A stretch of DNA of 64,000 nucleotides from Maribellus maritimus (lineage in GTDB: Bacteria > Bacteroidota > Bacteroidia > Bacteroidales > Prolixibacteraceae): the NCBI RefSeq assembly GCF_022267315.1, contig NZ_JAIKLE010000010.1, positions 62,001-126,000 on the forward strand. Reading direction: 5' to 3'. Under the pieces are notes generated by a model. That model was given only the letters and a program-made list of their open reading frames with translations. It did no database searches and was not told the DNA's origin. Both the position numbers and the translations under genes were made by a program. Within the stretch, counting starts at the first letter, position 1; each line of letters starts with the position of its first letter. This document shows positions 895 through 22,466 of this stretch, one piece after another.

Positions 895-3315
895 ATGCAA
901 ACAAAATACTTACTCCCAATTTTACTGATATTAATTACGCAGTCAGTTCTTTCTCAGAACAAAAAGTCATTTATTGAAAGCCAACAAACGATTCCTTTTC
1001 AAAAACTTTACCTACACACCGACCATGAATTTTACTTTTTGAATGATACAATTTGGTTTGCGGGATACCTACTTCACCCGCAAACGCATGCTCCTTTAAA
1101 AACCGACTGTAACTTGTATATCGAATTAACTGACAGTTCCGGTCATTCTGTTCAAAAAGAATTTTTTCCGATTGAGCAAGGTTTTTGCCCAGGCCAGTTA
1201 ACGCTAAACAGGCCTGAATTGGAAGAAGGAAACTACCTGCTTCGTGCTTACACCGATTTATTGGGTGAATATGGAGATGATTTAATTTTTTCAAAACCAA
1301 TTCGTATTAGTCGTGTAAAAAATACAGCCGGTCATGAAACAAAGGATAAGGATAAGCATAAAATAATCAACAACATAACTATCGACCTGTTTCCTGAAGG
1401 TGGTTTTCTGCTGGCGGGCAAATACAACCAAATGGCTTTTAAAGCAACTGAACCTTCAGGAAGGGATGTTGAAATTCACGGCCGGTTACTAAACGGGAAA
1501 GGAGAAGAGTTGATGAAATTTTCTTCGTTGTACCGGGGCATGGGAATAATTTATTTTATTCCGGAGCAAAGAGAAAAATATACAATTGAAATTGATGGTT
1601 ATCCGAATGTAATCTATAATTTCCCTAAAATCTCAGACACCGGAGCCAAACTGATGATTTACAAAGAAAATCCGGACGGTATTGATGTTAACGTTCTTTT
1701 AAACGAAGCAGTTAGCAATCAAAAATACTATGTGACTTCTCTAACCAGAGGCGAATTAAACTCTTTTGCAGAGGTAAGCAGGAACAAAAAAGAAAAAATT
1801 GTTCATATTAAAAACGAACTACTAAAAAACGGTATCAACCGGGTAGTTCTGTTAAACGAAAATTTCAAACCTGTCTCGGAACGACTTGTTTTTATTGATG
1901 AAGCCGAAGATGCTTCTTTGAAATTAAAATTGAACCAATTCCAATTTCGCCCACGGGAACAAGTGAAACTTGAAATAGATGTAAGTAAAAACATTGACAG
2001 AAATGAAATTGCTAACCTTTCCATTTCGGTTATTGATAAAAGTTCGATTCCGGAATCAGGGATTACAGAAAACATAAAATCCTATCTGTTAATCGATTCT
2101 GAACTAAAAGGGTACATTGCCAGCCCTGCCGACTACTTTATAAACGAACCTCAAATTTCATCAGCAAAAAAACTTGATTTACTTATGATGACCCAGGGTT
2201 GGAGCAACTATGTTTGGAATACACTAACCAAGAGAGAAAGAATCCCAGAAATTGAAACACATTTAGGACATACTTTTACAGGAACATTAAAAAATTACTA
2301 CAAAACAAAAAAGCTAACTGATTCAGAAGTAATACTGAGTGTGTCCGGAAAAACAGACAACTTTATGAATTTTACCCAAACTGATTCACTGGGAAACTAT
2401 ACATTTGACAATGTACAGTTTTATGATTCAGCTATTGTTTTTATACAGGGAAAAAATAAAAGAGACAAACTTAATACCACCATAACGTTAGACAGTATCC
2501 TTTTTAGCTCGCCTGAAACAACCTCTTCTGAACTGACGTTGGCAAAACATTTTACCAAAATTCCGGTTCCCATGCTTCGGACAAAATATTTTAATGAAGC
2601 CAGACTAAAAGAATTTTTCCCCGACCGTGATACCCGTCTTATTGAAGAAGTAAGAGTAACGGCAGCCAGGCCGGAGGAAGAAAAAAGCCAGGGACGAATT
2701 AGAATTTATACCGAACCAACTCACACGGTAGTATTGAAAGAAAATGCTTATGCATACCCAAACATTATGGAATATTTGGCAGGTCGCGTTCCCGGAAGAG
2801 TGGATTCCACCTATTTATTCTTGATAGATGGGATTGAAGTATTTTCAACAGATGATTTTCCAGCATATGATTATGTAACCTCTATTCCTGTGGGAGATAT
2901 AGAAAGAGTAGAAATTCTAAAACATGCCGCAGGTACTTATTATGGAATGCGCGGAAGAAATGGTGTTATTAACATCATTATTAAAAGAGGTGGGGGACGT
3001 ACATCAACGCCGGATATTCTGAAAGGTACAATAGTTAAACGAATTAAAGGCTTTTCATCGTACCGCGAATTTTATTCTCCAGCATACAACAGCGAAAATA
3101 TACGTTCTGAAATACCCGACTACCGGACTACACTTTACTGGAATCCGTCAATCGCGGTGGAAGATGGGAAAGTTAACTGTACTTTTTTTACTTGCGACAA
3201 TGTTGCTGAATACAAAATATTTGTAGAAGGAATTACAGAAAACGGAACAATTTGTTTGGGTGAGGCAGAGTTCGAAGCGGTTAAAAACAATGATACTACA
3301 AGCGAAAATTATTAA
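895..3315 (+). CDS. Secreted MG2-like / TonB plug-domain protein
   Basis: This is an 806-aa exported protein with a clear signal peptide (residues 1-20, ending SVLSQ). The N-terminal half resembles the macroglobulin MG2-type extended beta domains of Bacteroidota surface proteins (PFQKLYLHTDHEFYFLNDTIWF region). Residues about 583-700 form a TonB-receptor plug: EEVRVTAARPEEE, then IMEYLAGRVPG, LIDGIE, DIERVEILKHAAGTYYGMRG and NGVINIIIKRG. No 22-strand outer-membrane barrel follows, only about 100 residues, so this is not a complete TonB receptor. Such proteins are common in Bacteroidota and their substrate is unknown. It is monocistronic as far as can be seen, with a weak hairpin after the stop. 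Confidence 0.85.
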   Translation: MQTKYLLPILLILITQSVLSQNKKSFIESQQTIPFQKLYLHTDHEFYFLNDTIWFAGYLLHPQTHAPLKTDCNLYIELTDSSGHSVQKEFFPIEQGFCPGQLTLNRPELEEGNYLLRAYTDLLGEYGDDLIFSKPIRISRVKNTAGHETKDKDKHKIINNITIDLFPEGGFLLAGKYNQMAFKATEPSGRDVEIHGRLLNGKGEELMKFSSLYRGMGIIYFIPEQREKYTIEIDGYPNVIYNFPKISDTGAKLMIYKENPDGIDVNVLLNEAVSNQKYYVTSLTRGELNSFAEVSRNKKEKIVHIKNELLKNGINRVVLLNENFKPVSERLVFIDEAEDASLKLKLNQFQFRPREQVKLEIDVSKNIDRNEIANLSISVIDKSSIPESGITENIKSYLLIDSELKGYIASPADYFINEPQISSAKKLDLLMMTQGWSNYVWNTLTKRERIPEIETHLGHTFTGTLKNYYKTKKLTDSEVILSVSGKTDNFMNFTQTDSLGNYTFDNVQFYDSAIVFIQGKNKRDKLNTTITLDSILFSSPETTSSELTLAKHFTKIPVPMLRTKYFNEARLKEFFPDRDTRLIEEVRVTAARPEEEKSQGRIRIYTEPTHTVVLKENAYAYPNIMEYLAGRVPGRVDSTYLFLIDGIEVFSTDDFPAYDYVTSIPVGDIERVEILKHAAGTYYGMRGRNGVINIIIKRGGGRTSTPDILKGTIVKRIKGFSSYREFYSPAYNSENIRSEIPDYRTTLYWNPSIAVEDGKVNCTFFTCDNVAEYKIFVEGITENGTICLGEAEFEAVKNNDTTSENY

Positions 3316-3316
3316 A

Positions 3317-3342
3317 ATCCCGGCAGTTTGCACCACCGGGAT
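3317..3342 (+). terminator. Hairpin after plug-domain gene (weak terminator)
   Basis: ATCCCGG at 3317-3323 pairs exactly with CCGGGAT at 3336-3342 across a 12-base loop, starting 2 bases after the stop codon. No T-run follows, so intrinsic termination is uncertain; it could be an RNA 3'-end stabiliser. Confidence 0.4.
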
Positions 3343-3436
3343 TCACCAGATTGACTCTCTGTAGAATGTGTCGACTTGAGGATTTTAACCTCTAAGTCTA
3401 TCGAATTAAAACTATTACGATTTCAGATTAAAAAAA

Positions 3437-5647
3437 CTACCGCAAAACACGTCTCAGCTGCAACAGCTCCGGATTTAAAGCAATGGTGAGGCCGCCGGTA
3501 ACAGTCCAGCCAATACCGTACCAGGTTGACTCTGTTCCTGACCACCGCCTGATTTTTATAGTATAAGTTTTGCCCGGCTGCCCGGTAAACTCAGCTATTT
3601 CGTAGCTGTTATCCCACGAACCGCTGTATCCTACCAAAGCTCCATTTTCGTCATATATCATAAGGTCAAGGTCGACCTTTAGCTTTGACATATACCAGCT
3701 CCAGAAAAGGAACGATGTCTTTTTGGTTTTGGATGTCCAGGCTAAAGCAACTTTCACTTTTCGTGGCCCCCATATGTAATTGGGGACAGACACTTTATAC
3801 TCAAAAGTAGATTTTTTGTCGCTGCCAAAACTGGAAGAGCTAAGCAAGCCTACGTCCCATCCTCTGCGTGTAGCGGGTGCATTTCCCCATCGCCGGTTCT
3901 TTGCTACATTTACACCTTCGCATGCATTCACAGCTCCTGCACCGTCTTTTGCGTCAACTCCCCCACTTACATCCTGCCACCATGTATTACCAACAACATT
4001 TTTTGTTGCACTGGCTAACAGTATGGCTCTGCATCCTTCGGGCCAATGTTTCAATGTTGAATTTGTACCTTGAAGAAGTGCGCTTACTCCAACAACTGCC
4101 GGTGAAGCCTGGCTGGTTCCGGTCATTGTAATTCCGTCGGCTGTTACGCCAACACCGTTTGCGCTTATTTCAGGCAGTTCACGATCGCCGTGCGAAGTGC
4201 CCGGATTTCGAAACGTTGATGATGCTGACATTGCCGATGCATCATCATTGTGATTCCCAACAGAAATCGTATTATACCCTTTATGATTTACATATTCACT
4301 GCTGGGCGGATTAATATTATCCGGGTCTCCGTTCCAGAAGTTACCTGCTGCATGAACTATTAAAGGATATGGATATCGGGTTGCCAGATAGTCGCCATAA
4401 ATATCATCGCTTGATAACGCAGCAGAACCAGGCTCGCTGGATCGGTGAAAGCTTTGATTAATAACCGTACAGCCTTTGTCTTTTACTGCCCAGGTTAACG
4501 CATCCCTGTCTTTATCATTTGCTGAATACAAACTACACCCGGGAGCGTGCCCATTTGGTGTTCCGGATTCCTTATTCCGGATTATCGCATGCACATTCTG
4601 CGAATGATTTGATGTAGAAGGATTTGATTTGTATTTTCCGGCAATAACCAAATCTGAATTATTTGAAGGCCCTGATTCCCAGACAGCGACTTTTACACCC
4701 GAACCAGTTTCACCGGTGGAGTGAACAACATCAGAGCAGGCAACGGAAATCGAGTCGTCGAGGTCTTCAATGCCTTCAGTTTCATGAAGAAGTAAACCTG
4801 CCACATCTTTTCGTTCCGCCAACTCTTTAATGCCCGATGTTACAACATGAACGGTAACTACCGGCGCGAGTTCATCAACCTTTACTACTTTCAGATTGCT
4901 GCGAAGAGATTTTGCAAACTCTTTTAACCGTCCAACCATCTTTTCTCTCATTTCTTCTGAACGTCGGTTTGCTGAATCCTGGTCACATTCATTTAAAGCA
5001 CGGTCTGAAGGCAAAGCTTCAGGCTCCTCAACTTCGTACCAAACATCGACCAACACATTTGCAGGTGGTTTTTCAGAATAGATAATAGAAAACAGTGAGG
5101 GATGAATCTTTCCGAATTTCGAATTCAGTTTTTCACGATGTTCTTCAAGGACTTTTTCTCCATCTACTCTTTTGCCTTTATGGTCAAATTCAAATGATAA
5201 AGGCCTACCACTCTTGCGGTCTGTAGCTTTAAAAAATTCGATATACTCTACGTCTGAAATCTTATCACCCGGAAGCCGCTCAACACCATCTTCAACAAGT
5301 TTAATTCGAACAAAACTATTGATTTGCAGGTTGCCGGCAATTTTTGAGTTCGTGGCAACTACTGTAAAAGGGATCTCCAGAGGATCACTCAATTTCTGTG
5401 ATTTAGCATCCACAAGCGGATCAATTACCAGCCTATGTTGTCCGGGTGGCAACCCATTCTCTGCACTCCATACAAAACCACCTCTCCGTCTTGTAGGAGA
5501 GACTTTCCCATCCACACCCTGAACCGCTATGCTTCTGATCACACGATCTGCATCTGCATTCGCAACAGTTGTGATTTCGATAGACGAATTTGTTGTTAGA
5601 ATTTCGTCGCGTACCAGACTTACCAGTACATTACTTTCTTTAGTCAT
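3437..5647 (-). CDS. Subtilisin-like (S8) serine protease, Glu in place of catalytic Asp
   Basis: This 736-aa protein has an S8 peptidase domain at about residues 310-555. The Ser block GTSQASP (S512), the AAGN oxyanion asparagine (N436) and the His region HSQNVHAII (H348) are present. The block that normally reads VAVxDxG is VAVWESG, placing Glu324 at the catalytic Asp position. About 300 N-terminal residues include a possible beta-sandwich and a protease-inhibitor-like region; the last about 130 residues look like a C-terminal beta-sandwich. No signal peptide is visible (start MTKESNVLVS), so it may be cytosolic or exported unconventionally. A strong AGGAG (5655-5659) lies 6 bases before the ATG. 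It stands alone between convergent and divergent neighbours, and by eye its codon use is richer in GC than theirs, suggesting acquisition. Confidence 0.85.
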   Translation of the reverse strand: MTKESNVLVSLVRDEILTTNSSIEITTVANADADRVIRSIAVQGVDGKVSPTRRRGGFVWSAENGLPPGQHRLVIDPLVDAKSQKLSDPLEIPFTVVATNSKIAGNLQINSFVRIKLVEDGVERLPGDKISDVEYIEFFKATDRKSGRPLSFEFDHKGKRVDGEKVLEEHREKLNSKFGKIHPSLFSIIYSEKPPANVLVDVWYEVEEPEALPSDRALNECDQDSANRRSEEMREKMVGRLKEFAKSLRSNLKVVKVDELAPVVTVHVVTSGIKELAERKDVAGLLLHETEGIEDLDDSISVACSDVVHSTGETGSGVKVAVWESGPSNNSDLVIAGKYKSNPSTSNHSQNVHAIIRNKESGTPNGHAPGCSLYSANDKDRDALTWAVKDKGCTVINQSFHRSSEPGSAALSSDDIYGDYLATRYPYPLIVHAAGNFWNGDPDNINPPSSEYVNHKGYNTISVGNHNDDASAMSASSTFRNPGTSHGDRELPEISANGVGVTADGITMTGTSQASPAVVGVSALLQGTNSTLKHWPEGCRAILLASATKNVVGNTWWQDVSGGVDAKDGAGAVNACEGVNVAKNRRWGNAPATRRGWDVGLLSSSSFGSDKKSTFEYKVSVPNYIWGPRKVKVALAWTSKTKKTSFLFWSWYMSKLKVDLDLMIYDENGALVGYSGSWDNSYEIAEFTGQPGKTYTIKIRRWSGTESTWYGIGWTVTGGLTIALNPELLQLRRVLR

Positions 5648-18405: not shown

Positions 18406-19791
18406 TTAATCGACCTGATCATGAAGATATGAATTTTTGTCTTTTATTTTATTATCTTTTGAGACAGAATATTTTGACGGTTTATGGTTATATTTTGGGT
18501 CGTTCATTCTCAACTGTCTTCTTTTATAGGCAGGAATATTTTCAAACTCGTCCACATCCTCATCGCTTAGATTAGAATAATCCAGTACCACATTTTTCTT
18601 TTCAGGAGAGGTTCTCTCTTCTGATGTTTTTGGATACAACAACTCAAACTCAGACTCCTCCTGTCTTTTTTCCTCCGAAATATCAAACTCAAACGTTTTC
18701 TGATTGTTTCTGCTATTTGTTTTTTGAGTGGTCGAATTTTCTCTGTTTTGCTTCTCTGATTCGTCAAGCAGATGTTCTTTTTTTTCCGCCTGTTCTTTGT
18801 TCTCAAAATGAGGAATACTACTCTTACTGATTCCCGTAACAATTAAGGTTACTGAAATATTTTCACCAAGCGATTCTTCTTTTCCGTTTCCCCAAATAAT
18901 ATCGGCGTCAAATCCTGCTTTGTTCTGGACATAGTCTGTAATACGGCCAACTTCATCCATAGTAACTTCAGTTGTTCCAGAAGTAATATTTAGTAAAATA
19001 TTTTTTGCACCCCGAATATCATTGTTATTCAACAATGGGGAATTCAACGCTTTTTCAACTGCTTCTTCAGCACGTTTTTCACCTGTTGCGATTCCGGTTC
19101 CCATAACAGCCAAACCACTTTTGCGCATAACAGTTTCCACATCAGCAAAGTCTACATTTATGTATCCCGGAACAGTAATAATCTCTGCGATACCTTTTGC
19201 TGCAATAGCTAGAATATTATCTGCACGAGAAAAAGCTTCTGAAATTCCAAAATCACCATACATTTCACGAATTCTTTCATTGTTGATTACCAATAATGAG
19301 TCCACGTGCTTTTCTAATTCTTCAATTCCTTCAACAGCCTGTTTTATTCTCCTCCTTCCTTCATTTCTGAAGGGAATGGTTACAATCCCAACCGTTAAAT
19401 ACCCGCGGTTTTTACATGCTTCAGCAATAACCGGAGCGCCACCTGTTCCGGTTCCACCGCCCATTCCGGCAGTTACAAAAACCATTTTTGTGCCGTTCCC
19501 AAGTGCTGCTTTTACATCATCAATATTTTCAAGTGCCGCCTGTTTTCCTGTTTCCGGTTTGTTCCCTGCTCCCCGTCCCTCTGTCAACGAGGCTCCCAGT
19601 TGTACTTTAATCTGAATAGGGCTGGCATCCAAAGCCTGTGAATCTGTATTACAAATCACAAAATCAACATCGCGAATGCCCTGTTTAAACATATGGTTTA
19701 CCGCATTTCCTCCGCCTCCGCCAACTCCTATAACTTTTATCGCAGCTCCTTTATTTTTAGAATTTGATAAATCTGCCATTTTCTCTGTCAT
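18406..19791 (-). CDS. ftsZ: Cell division protein FtsZ (paralogue 2, canonical tail)
   Basis: This is a 461-aa tubulin-like GTPase that polymerises into the division ring. The GTP site is intact: GVGGGGGNAV near residue 22, the tubulin signature GGGTGTG (111-117), and T7 loop NVDFAD (N212, D214, D217) for hydrolysis. After a long charged linker the conserved C-terminal peptide DEFENIPAYKRRQ (IPAYKRRQ at about 419-426) is present, followed by 35 basic residues. This peptide binds FtsA and other partners in the family. It lies 24 bases downstream of another ftsZ, and this copy appears to be the orthodox one. Confidence 0.96.
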   Translation of the reverse strand: MTEKMADLSNSKNKGAAIKVIGVGGGGGNAVNHMFKQGIRDVDFVICNTDSQALDASPIQIKVQLGASLTEGRGAGNKPETGKQAALENIDDVKAALGNGTKMVFVTAGMGGGTGTGGAPVIAEACKNRGYLTVGIVTIPFRNEGRRRIKQAVEGIEELEKHVDSLLVINNERIREMYGDFGISEAFSRADNILAIAAKGIAEIITVPGYINVDFADVETVMRKSGLAVMGTGIATGEKRAEEAVEKALNSPLLNNNDIRGAKNILLNITSGTTEVTMDEVGRITDYVQNKAGFDADIIWGNGKEESLGENISVTLIVTGISKSSIPHFENKEQAEKKEHLLDESEKQNRENSTTQKTNSRNNQKTFEFDISEEKRQEESEFELLYPKTSEERTSPEKKNVVLDYSNLSDEDVDEFENIPAYKRRQLRMNDPKYNHKPSKYSVSKDNKIKDKNSYLHDQVD

Positions 19792-19815
19792 AATCCAATC
19801 TGTTTGTTTTTGGGT

Positions 19816-21174
19816 TTACTCATCCATTGCTTGATCCTCATCATCAAATAATTTCCCCAGTCCAAAATTTTTATAAAACCAATTATCAATACTAGGTTCA
19901 GTTACAGGTTCATCTTTCTTTACTTTTCTCTTAGGTTCTTTTTTCTTTTTTCGACCAAAAATCGATTTTTCACTTGTTTCCTTCTTTGGCCTTACGTAAA
20001 CTTTTTCTTTTAACTCCTCCTCTTTTTCGTCATCGTTTTCTTCCTGCTCAAAAACAATCTTATTTTCATTTTTTCTCTGTGAAACAAATTCTTCTTTTTC
20101 TTTTGTTTGTTCATTAAGAACAGGTTCTTCTTCCGGATCCTCAACTAAATCGAACTTTTCCCGTTCTTTTTTGGGCTGCAAAATCTGATTTGGATTGGTT
20201 ACAAAACCAGTGGCAAGAATGGTTACGCTGACTTTGTCTCCCAGTGATTCATCATATCCATTTCCCCAAATAATATCTGCCTCCTTACCTGCCTTTTCCT
20301 GCAAGGTTTCAATTATGTCACCAATCTCGCCCATTTTTATTTCTTCCTTGCCCGAAATAATATTGAGCAATATATTTTTGGTACCATGAATATCATTGCT
20401 ATCCAGCAAAGGCGATTCCAAAGCCTGATTCACTGCTTCCATTGCCCGGCCTTCACCAGTGGCATAACCGGTTCCCATAATAAACACTTTACTGTTGTGC
20501 ATTACGGTATGAACATCGGTATAATCAATATTTACATTACCATGAACCGTAATGATTTCGGCAACACCTTTTACCGCCGTGGTTACAATATTATCAGCCA
20601 TTTTAAATGCCTGTCGGGCAGGTAAATCTCCAAATATATTCTGAAGTCGCTGGTTGCTTACTACCAGCATACTATCCACAAACTCTCCCAGTTTCTCAAT
20701 TCCTTTCATAGCCTGACCAAACCGTTTCTTTCCTTCTGCCGGTGAAGGAATTGTAACTACCGCTATCGTAAGAATTTTAAGTTCCCGGGCCAACTTGGCA
20801 ATTACCGGAGCTGCCCCCGTACCGGTTCCTCCGCCCATTCCGGCGGTGATAAACAACATTTTGGTGTTATCTTCCAAAACTTTTTTTAGATCCTCATAAT
20901 TTTCACGTGCTGCCTCCTCGCCCATTTCGGGTTTGTTACCTGCTCCGCGGCCCTCGGTAAGTGTAACACCAAGCTGAATCTTCACAGGAACAGGACTCTG
21001 TTCCAACGCCTGCGAATCAGTATTACATATGATGTAATCCACTCCTGTAATTCCCTCCTCAAACATGTGGTTAACAGCATTGCAGCCGCCACCGCCAACA
21101 CCAATTACCTTTATTATGGATGACGAAGCTTTTGGAAGCTTAAAGTTTACTAATTCTTCGGTCATATCATTCAA
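19816..21174 (-). CDS. ftsZ: FtsZ paralogue 1, lacking the canonical C-terminal peptide
   Basis: This second full-length FtsZ (452 aa) is encoded 2 bases after ftsA. The GTPase core is complete: GVGGGGCNAV (about 25-34), GGGTGTG (114-120) and T7 loop NIDYTD with N215, D217 and D220, so it should bind and hydrolyse GTP. The sequence differs from its neighbour in many places (HGNVNIDYTDVHTVM against PGYINVDFADVETVM). The C-terminal third is a very charged Glu/Lys linker ending in NWFYKNFGLGKLFDDED, with no IPAYxRR peptide. It therefore probably co-polymerises with or modulates the ring but contacts other partners. A true duplication rather than an assembly error is indicated by this divergence. 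Confidence 0.95.
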   Translation of the reverse strand: MNDMTEELVNFKLPKASSSIIKVIGVGGGGCNAVNHMFEEGITGVDYIICNTDSQALEQSPVPVKIQLGVTLTEGRGAGNKPEMGEEAARENYEDLKKVLEDNTKMLFITAGMGGGTGTGAAPVIAKLARELKILTIAVVTIPSPAEGKKRFGQAMKGIEKLGEFVDSMLVVSNQRLQNIFGDLPARQAFKMADNIVTTAVKGVAEIITVHGNVNIDYTDVHTVMHNSKVFIMGTGYATGEGRAMEAVNQALESPLLDSNDIHGTKNILLNIISGKEEIKMGEIGDIIETLQEKAGKEADIIWGNGYDESLGDKVSVTILATGFVTNPNQILQPKKEREKFDLVEDPEEEPVLNEQTKEKEEFVSQRKNENKIVFEQEENDDEKEEELKEKVYVRPKKETSEKSIFGRKKKKEPKRKVKKDEPVTEPSIDNWFYKNFGLGKLFDDEDQAMDE

Positions 21175-21176
21175 TT

Positions 21177-22466
21177 TTAATTCATTGCTAAATCATCGTT
21201 GTCATCGTCGATGTAATCGAGAACACCCTGAATGGCTTTACGCCATGAAGAAAGGCCGTTATTTTCCTTTTTCTTCTTCTCCTTTTTTCTTTTCGTTCTT
21301 ATACCCTCCGACTCCTCCTCTTTCTCTAGAGTCATTTTCAACAAACCAAAAGCGGTAAGTAAATCCTGATTTTGAAATTCTTTCCGCCTGTTTACCGGAT
21401 GGATAACAGGAAAAGCTTTTCGGGCATCCAAACCAGTTCGGAATTTCACCAACGAAATCAGATTACTCATATCAGCGGTTCCTCCCGACACAACAACCCC
21501 AAACCCCAGTTTTTCTTCCACTCCTGATTTTCCTATCTGGAGATTTACATTGTCAATAATTTCCTCCATTCTTGCCTGAATGATAAATGCAAGGCTTTTA
21601 AAAGAGATTTCTTTGGGTTCCCAGCCATTATGCCCGGGAATGGTAACCACTTTTTGTTCATCAGCAAAATCGCCCAGAGCTTCACCATACTTTACCTTCA
21701 GCTGTTCGGCCCATTTTAACAAAATAGAACAACCTTCTCTGATGTCTTTGGTTACAACGTCTCCTCCAAAAGGGATAACTGCAACGTGTTTTAATACACT
21801 GTTATGAAAAACAGCTAGCTTTGTTGTTCCGGCTCCAATATCCAAAAGAACAGCTCCATTTTCCTTTTCATCCTCGGAAAGCGCCGACTCGGAGATTGCC
21901 AAAGGCGAAAGCGTGATTCCTTCTATATTCACCCCGACCTTTTCAAAAACCCGTTGAAAATTAAGAATATGAACCTCAGGAACAATAAACAATTTGTAAT
22001 TAGCCTCCAGTTTTCTTCCGGTAATTCCCACCGGGTTCAATTCCCTGATTTCATCATCGATAATAAAAGATTGCGGAACAATGTGAATCGTCTTGTAGTT
22101 CTGCTCAACCTTATAACTTTTAGCTTCATTATACAACTCGTTAATATCAAAATCAGATACTACTCCGTCGTCAGACGTATAGCGATAACCGCGGTAATCA
22201 GCCGTTTTCATTTGCTGTCCGGCAAAAGCAATTTCAACTCCTGTAATTTCTGCATCCAACTGCTTTTCCAAATCGGCAATTACTTCTTTCAGACATGAAG
22301 CCAATTCTTCAATATTAAAAACCACCCCTCGTTTGACACCTTTTGAGGACACTCTTGAAACGGCCAAGATTTCCATTTTGCCCTCCTCTGTTTTTTGTCC
22401 TGCCAGTCCGACAATTTTTGAAGTACCAATATCAATAACAACCGAAAGATTACTGTTTGAAGCCAT
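21177..22466 (-). CDS. ftsA: Cell division protein FtsA
   Basis: This is a 429-aa actin-fold membrane tether for FtsZ. Actin-family ATP motifs are visible: VVIDIGTSKIVGLAG (phosphate 1), GAVLLDIGAGTTKLAVF (phosphate 2) and GFGVVVSGGTADMSNL (adenosine). The SHS2/1C domain lies at about residues 85-165. The C-terminus carries a basic stretch, then LSSWRKAIQGVLDYI, a plausible amphipathic membrane-targeting helix, followed by an acidic tail. It lies between ftsQ (2-base gap) and two ftsZ genes, raising the question of which FtsZ it binds; only paralogue 2 has the usual binding peptide. Confidence 0.95.
   Translation of the reverse strand: MASNSNLSVVIDIGTSKIVGLAGQKTEEGKMEILAVSRVSSKGVKRGVVFNIEELASCLKEVIADLEKQLDAEITGVEIAFAGQQMKTADYRGYRYTSDDGVVSDFDINELYNEAKSYKVEQNYKTIHIVPQSFIIDDEIRELNPVGITGRKLEANYKLFIVPEVHILNFQRVFEKVGVNIEGITLSPLAISESALSEDEKENGAVLLDIGAGTTKLAVFHNSVLKHVAVIPFGGDVVTKDIREGCSILLKWAEQLKVKYGEALGDFADEQKVVTIPGHNGWEPKEISFKSLAFIIQARMEEIIDNVNLQIGKSGVEEKLGFGVVVSGGTADMSNLISLVKFRTGLDARKAFPVIHPVNRRKEFQNQDLLTAFGLLKMTLEKEEESEGIRTKRKKEKKKKENNGLSSWRKAIQGVLDYIDDDNDDLAMN

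Follow-up and report, generated by a model that had tools for sequence, protein, structure and literature searches.

Tandem ftsZ genes in Prolixibacteraceae encode a canonical FtsZ and a paralog with a conserved C-terminal tail resembling that of FtsA

Here, we describe a tandem pair of ftsZ genes on the minus strand of a 64,000-nucleotide stretch of the Maribellus maritimus genome (assembly GCF_022267315.1, contig NZ_JAIKLE010000010.1, positions 62,001 to 126,000), to which we refer as the window and in whose coordinates all positions are given. Both genes, denoted ftsZ-A (upstream) and ftsZ-B (downstream), are located directly downstream of ftsA, within the division and cell wall (dcw) cluster, in the order ftsA, ftsZ-A, ftsZ-B, and each encodes a full FtsZ protein. 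The pair is conserved across the family that, judging from the named matches, is Prolixibacteraceae; both copies are under purifying selection, and FtsZ-A has lost the usual FtsZ C terminus, which is replaced by a tail with profile similarity to the tails of FtsA. This arrangement is real, conserved and, as far as searches of the open-access literature go, unreported, and it adds to the known theme of dual FtsZ systems.

Two complete FtsZ proteins encoded behind ftsA

The features discussed below are as follows.

21177-22466, minus strand: ftsA; match to TIGR01174; the product ends in SSWRKAIQGVLDYIDDDNDDLAMN, a membrane-helix-like tail
19816-21174, minus strand: ftsZ-A, the upstream copy; 452 aa from the TTG at 21174 or 449 aa from the ATG at 21165; complete GTPase domain, variable linker and novel tail
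20515-20532, minus strand: T7 loop of FtsZ-A, NIDYTD; 39/39 A copies retain N207, D209 and D212 (E. coli numbering)
19834-19887, minus strand: conserved tail of FtsZ-A, DNWFYKNFGLGKLFDDED; candidate membrane-interacting segment, with a W motif in the family A copies and a match to the FtsA-tail profile
18406-19791, minus strand: ftsZ-B, the downstream copy; 461 aa, canonical FtsZ
19141-19158, minus strand: T7 loop of FtsZ-B, NVDFAD; N207, D209 and D212 kept in 39/39 B copies
18514-18537, minus strand: partner-binding peptide of FtsZ-B, IPAYKRRQ; PA[YF] in 61/62 family B copies and 0/65 A copies
18409-18435, minus strand: extreme C terminus of FtsZ-B, NSYLHDQVD; second conserved motif, with the end pattern in 62/62 B and 0/65 A copies

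Both proteins exceed the 295.2-bit cut-off of the FtsZ equivalog model TIGR00065 (351.7 bits for FtsZ-A and 366.4 bits for FtsZ-B) and contain the Pfam Tubulin and FtsZ_C domains; they account for the only 2 FtsZ_C matches (E <= 0.001) in the 7.3 Mb genome, and the closest solved structures to FtsZ-A are ordinary FtsZs. The ATG at 21165 (MTEEL...), from which relatives align, is a more probable start codon for FtsZ-A than the TTG at 21174. A preliminary description of this locus, made from the sequence alone, had recognized the two genes behind ftsA, noted a complete GTPase site and the T7 loops NIDYTD and NVDFAD, and concluded that neither copy is a pseudogene, all of which is borne out here. 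The GGGTGTG signature is invariant (23/23 A rows and 23/23 B rows), and E138, R142 and F182 (E. coli numbering) are kept in all 39 A and 39 B family copies. At positions that hold in 39/39 B copies, the A copies show the following departures: A at residue 21 (7/39), C at residue 103 (4/39), L at residue 104 (5/39), G at residue 165 (1/39) and N at residue 186 (1/39). Several further sites in these loops vary in both A and B. Only 10 positions within the domain discriminate A from B at an 87% threshold, and the changes are mostly mild. The filament interface appears to be kept, so that mixed A/B filaments are plausible.

Ratios of nonsynonymous to synonymous substitution rates (dN/dS), estimated as pairwise medians over 27 loci from this and near genera, point in the same direction, with the proviso that most pairs are saturated and only 45 to 89 of the 351 pairs per FtsZ part are usable (82/351 for the A domain and 89/351 for the B domain). 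The medians for FtsZ-A are 0.048 in the domain, 0.43 in the linker and 0.19 in the tail, and those for FtsZ-B are 0.069 in the domain, 0.39 in the linker and 0.13 from the peptide to the end, values which indicate that both copies are under purifying selection. The very strong constraint on the A domain, together with the scarcity of sites separating A from B, would suit a subunit with a regulatory or structural role, adjusting the curvature, bundling or speed of the B filament, with the tail serving self-association or regulation. We consider such a role improbable as the main explanation, although it is compatible with the membrane-anchoring interpretation discussed below, because it leaves the recurrence of helix-like tails in other families of the order unexplained.

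Distribution and age of the pair in the family

The preliminary description had put forward conservation of the pair and of its novel tail in relatives, as well as a tree of the two copies, as checks on its interpretation, and the results agree with it on each count. Among 140 family genomes, at least 2 FtsZ matches are present in 132, a single match in 3 and none in 5; these counts include some partial matches (e.g., in G014 and G035), and in the 3 single-match genomes (G067, G071 and G121) the match is partial or at a contig end. In the genus of M. maritimus, 2 matches were found in 37/37 genomes, its own included. Contigs matching the same query come from Draconibacterium, Maribellus, Mariniphaga and Tangfeifania, among others; NCBI places Draconibacterium in Prolixibacteraceae, Marinilabiliales. 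The wider order of our genome survey we take to be Bacteroidales in the GTDB sense.

In a 127-row tree, in which long branches were flagged (notably, L108 and L154), 40 A and 40 B rows are set apart, with the first copy in the coding direction always grouping with A and the second always with B at the 40 family loci. In a 72-row tree, A and B again form separate groups, each on one side of a branch, with support of 100/100 and 96/93, respectively. These topologies indicate that the separation of A and B is ancient, and the genome counts show that the pair is a family-wide trait, not a peculiarity of this genome. A simple gene-dosage duplicate, or a decaying copy without a separate role, would account for the presence of 2 copies and for nothing else; given the two old groups in the tree, the conserved gene order, catalytic residues and tails, and the strong purifying selection, we hold this explanation to be very improbable.

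Replacement of the C terminus in FtsZ-A

The 3′ end of ftsZ-A reads ...SIDNWFYKNFGLGKLFDDEDQAMDE, followed by TAA, 24 bp and the ATG of ftsZ-B. With only the stop codon and these 24 bp in between, there is no partner-binding peptide concealed by a frameshift at this place. Indeed, as the preliminary description had noted for the upstream copy of the window, the peptide is missing: the PA[YF] core occurs in 0/65 family A copies. Instead, 64/65 carry W[FLIM]xxx[FLI] near the end, and the stricter pattern W[FL]x[RK][QNRK][FL], commonly followed by LF or FF and acidic residues, is found in 61/65; near relatives of the A copy in the window have one or more extra residues (GLG) within the tail segment. 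A recent frameshift in a single strain, which the preliminary description had named as the finding that would undo its claim, is at odds with this family-wide occurrence of the tail. Frameshift or pseudogene origin of FtsZ-A was rejected on this ground and on those of purifying selection, the conserved catalytic residues and the reading of the 3′ end.

By contrast with A, PA[YF] is present in 61/62 family B copies, and all 62 close with an NSYLHDQVD-type end. On one point the preliminary description has to be corrected: FtsZ-B of the window does not end in IPAYKRRQ, which is followed by 35 more residues, ending in NSYLHDQVD. The same type of end also closes several single-copy relatives, and therefore B appears to have kept the ancestral C terminus, whereas A lost both of its parts.

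From the tail sets, the outgroup loci L067, L077 and L078 were excluded, as were L157, L170 and L165, the last having an A copy that is partly masked; the FtsZ tail sets also exclude L163, which contains a pair of another kind. For the motif counts above, B copies cut by the end of a contig or locus were excluded, so that 62 of 65 were used. One family member, L099, departs from the common pattern: its A copy has a different amphipathic stretch, GGGMFDGIKKIFGKLV, instead of the W motif, its B copy lacks PA[YF], and the end of its FtsA is unusual too.

Resemblance of the tail to FtsA and its possible function

When profiles of the last 45 residues were compared with hhalign, the A tails matched the FtsA tails of the family with 92% probability, the FtsA tails of other families with 64%, the helix-tailed FtsZ copies of other families with 90% and the B tails with 0.06%. 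Because hhalign E-values are pairwise and not calibrated on a database, a permutation control was used: over 150 column permutations, scores averaged 6.9 and peaked at 13.0, so that none (0/150) equaled the A-tail/FtsA-tail score of 31.8. Given that the last 45 residues omit the peptide in many B copies, a separate comparison was made with the peptide included, and here the A tail did no better against the partner-binding peptide profile than permuted columns (34/150 as good). By eye, the pattern I-x-x-W-x-x-[RK]-[QN]-F resembles IPAYKRRQL, and a diverged partner-binding peptide was considered on that account; the permutation result leaves this candidate unsupported.

In short windows, the A tails also resemble those of FtsA in amphipathicity. 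The best 11-residue hydrophobic moment has a median of 0.62 for A, 0.60 for family FtsA, 0.38 for B and 0.35 for single-copy FtsZ (39, 39, 39 and 14 rows, respectively); that of the E. coli FtsA tail is 0.84. The moment of A exceeds that of B in 24/24 rows from 23 genera, and the difference holds at windows of 11, 14 and 18 residues (p = 3e-12, 1e-7 and 4e-8, values that ignore relatedness). Among the controls, 3% of 78 A linker windows and 0% of 39 B tails were significant against shuffles. The choice of window lengths, and of the rules on proline and mean hydrophobicity, was made after the tails had been seen. Single-FtsZ relatives, furthermore, have more amphipathic FtsA tails than the family does (p = 1.9e-4 with 11-residue windows, again ignoring relatedness), an observation on which we do not build. 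Taken together, the profile and moment comparisons point to an FtsA-like, possibly membrane-interacting, tail.

We lean toward the interpretation that FtsZ-A is a self-anchoring FtsZ that would co-assemble with FtsA-bound FtsZ-B. Long ago, ftsZ would have duplicated within the dcw cluster, yielding two functional FtsZ proteins. Of these, FtsZ-B kept the ancestral C terminus, with the peptide and the second end motif, and would be tethered via FtsA by this peptide, like FtsZ in other bacteria. FtsZ-A lost both C-terminal parts and has a conserved aromatic tail, amphipathic in most of the family, with acidic residues after it and similar to that of FtsA. Through the conserved longitudinal GTPase interface, FtsZ-A would co-polymerize with FtsZ-B and fix the mixed filaments directly to the membrane, with FtsA linking the B subunits only, so that the ring would gain a second membrane hold independent of FtsA. 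Self-anchoring of this kind is feasible, given that an engineered E. coli FtsZ equipped with the FtsA membrane sequence binds membranes (PMC7320174). The split labor that the preliminary description had envisaged for two co-assembling FtsZ proteins is partly sustained: purifying selection, the ancient separation and the absence of PA[YF] from A and its presence in B are what a division of labor predicts, and the roles themselves stay at the level of proposal.

Several observations weigh against a membrane-anchoring tail. Taken as one helix, the A tail of the window itself shows no significant amphipathicity (moment 0.49, z = 0.27; p = 0.38 in comparison with shuffles), and only 41% of the 39 family A tails reach p < 0.05 individually, compared with 8% of the family FtsA tails and 65% of the FtsA tails from other families. 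At a window length of 18 residues, A (0.42) falls below FtsA (0.48), and the best A windows carry a net charge of 0 to -1, unlike the basic tail of E. coli FtsA. AlphaFold2 predicts, at low confidence, a short helix at residues 427-434 of FtsZ-A (449-aa numbering), with blocks of mean pLDDT (predicted local distance difference test) 45 and 54 and the end otherwise disordered; because the partner-binding peptide of FtsZ-B is also predicted as a helix, with similar confidence, the prediction does not discriminate between the two. The dN/dS of the A tail (0.19) is lower than that of the tail of FtsA itself (0.42), that is, the A tail is the more constrained of the two, and this constraint, combined with the near-invariant W and F, is more in keeping with a motif for specific binding than with a membrane helix of a generic kind. 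Finally, similarity between such short tails can come from convergence.

Some of these points speak for a different function, in which the A tail would be a new protein-binding peptide, recruiting either a divisome protein specific to the lineage or FtsA through a different site, so that the two FtsZs would have different sets of partners. The near-invariance of W and F (W motif in 64/65 copies), the stronger constraint on the tail than on either the linker or the tail of FtsA, and the weak single-helix amphipathicity in the window all favor this explanation; yet, in the profile comparisons the tail matches those of FtsA but fails to match the partner-binding peptide, and in L099 as well as in other families this position is occupied by helix-like tails of different appearance. 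The excess constraint relative to FtsA tempers the membrane-anchor interpretation, to which we nevertheless still incline, and raises the standing of a protein-binding peptide, which we regard as a serious contender but, on balance, unlikely.

Comparison with known dual-FtsZ systems

A second FtsZ paralog, truncated and lacking the conserved C-terminal peptide, occurs in alpha-proteobacteria. Here, by contrast, a conserved tail stands in place of the peptide, and the gene is flanked by ftsA and the canonical ftsZ. The plastid proteins FtsZ1 and FtsZ2 function in a eukaryotic organelle, stem from a separate duplication and rely on other anchor proteins. They resemble the pair described here in that the two FtsZs co-exist and one of them lacks the canonical peptide and has been reported to bind membranes through its C terminus; PMC12583498 cites findings that Arabidopsis FtsZ1 binds membranes through its C terminus and that FtsZ ends do so in mycoplasmas. 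With that source, the parallels to plastids and archaea that the preliminary description had drawn are in agreement.

The archaeal counterpart is the pair OdinFtsZ1 and OdinFtsZ2 of Odinarchaeota, of which FtsZ1, as described in PMC12583498, tethers directly by an N-terminal amphipathic helix and FtsZ2 via SepF, which binds its C-terminal tail. The likeness would consist in the presence of two paralogs and in the amphipathic tails of FtsZ-A, which are apparent at the family level and weak in the protein of the window. The differences are that, in Odinarchaeota, the genes neighbor those for ribosomal proteins and tRNA synthetases, and the helix sits at the N terminus, with SepF as the adaptor (PMC12583498), whereas the present genes belong to the dcw cluster, the candidate anchor sits at the C terminus and FtsA would serve as the adaptor. 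SepF had no match in the M. maritimus genome, in a search whose control recovers SepF in 7/14 known genomes.

A further analog is an engineered one, the chimera of FtsZ, yellow fluorescent protein (YFP) and the E. coli FtsA membrane-targeting sequence (mts), FtsZ-YFP-mts[FtsA-E. coli], which binds membranes and forms rotating rings in vitro (PMC7320174). Like FtsZ-A under the self-anchoring interpretation, it is an FtsZ with a C-terminal FtsA membrane-targeting sequence, and it is active in a minimal in vitro reconstitution (PMC7320174); the difference is that FtsZ-A would be a natural counterpart, existing beside a canonical FtsZ. Self-anchoring of FtsZ and the reason for separate anchors have been studied in vitro with engineered chimeras (e.g., PMC7320174). 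A bacterial family that includes cultured members and in which a canonical FtsZ is retained beside one with a conserved anchor-like tail offers a natural experiment on these questions, and, if the proposed mechanism is true, models of the Z-ring with a single FtsZ would fail for this family.

As for previous reports, the available extract of a study of FtsZ evolution describes a divergent second copy in some genomes of the candidate phyla radiation (CPR) and mentions no Bacteroidota ftsZ pair (PMC9871819), and the extracts of PMC4164004 and PMC7203096 contain nothing on such a pair. Among the matches listed by searches of the open-access literature, with most subscription papers and preprints outside their scope, there was no report of paired ftsZ in Bacteroidota.

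Helix-like tails in other families of the order

Outside the family, at least 2 FtsZ matches were found in 26/243 genomes of the order, and none in 5/243. These 26 multi-match genomes comprise 11 with adjacent over-cut-off copies, 1 (G310) with an adjacent sub-cut-off copy that lacks this tail, and 14 with fragments, split genes or remote homologs. The 11 genomes with adjacent over-cut-off copies fall into 6 further families (f16, f23, f32, f67, f81 and f100) and share one layout in 11/11 cases: ftsA, then 1 or 2 copies with helix-like tails, then a copy with the partner-binding peptide (EPAHKR in L108). The 15 helix-tailed copies of these families are called helix-like on the basis of a median moment of 0.61, with 27% significant one by one. 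In 4/11 genomes (f32 and f67; loci L151, L153, L155 and L158), three tandem ftsZ genes follow ftsA, the first two with different helix-like tails, the end stretch of the second containing WIQTT in 4/4, and the third with the partner-binding peptide.

In the free 72-row tree, the helix-tailed copies of other families stand apart from the A group, and 5 changes between helix-like and peptide tails are required, of which at least 2 are forced by the starred branches. Approximately unbiased (AU) tests gave a borderline result for all helix-tailed copies as one clade (p = 0.0508) and rejected neither a grouping of A with the second copies of f32 and f67 (p = 0.117) nor A and B as one clade, i.e., duplication inside the family (p = 0.418). 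A repeated origin of helix-like tails appears likely, and the triple-ftsZ genomes suggest that tail exchange is a repeated route in FtsZ evolution.

We tentatively propose, with less than even credence, a broader scenario, in which FtsZ-A is a natural fusion of FtsZ with a membrane anchor: extra copies between ftsA and the canonical ftsZ would have swapped the peptide for an FtsA-like membrane helix independently in several lineages, giving Z-rings built of two or three FtsZ species that differ mainly in their hold on the membrane. Possibly, the FtsA-like helix was acquired by capture of the 3′ end of ftsA during tandem duplication.

Other FtsZ-like genes

The survey also yielded FtsZ-like genes of other kinds. 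In G310, the adjacent ftsZ pair (L163:736-1923 and 2413-3801) has the peptide-like copy first and a second copy with a short C terminus. Outside the order, more than one match was found in 11/157 genomes (ten of code f128 and G539), and the second match of G445 spans the whole conserved domain. Two family genomes contain, elsewhere, a third, highly divergent FtsZ-like gene (L157:1850-2974 in G139 and L170:1325-2818 in G108). Short FtsZ-like open reading frames at L167:936-1622 and L169:614-1381 (228 and 255 aa) match the GTPase part of the model only and end in basic, possibly amphipathic stretches.

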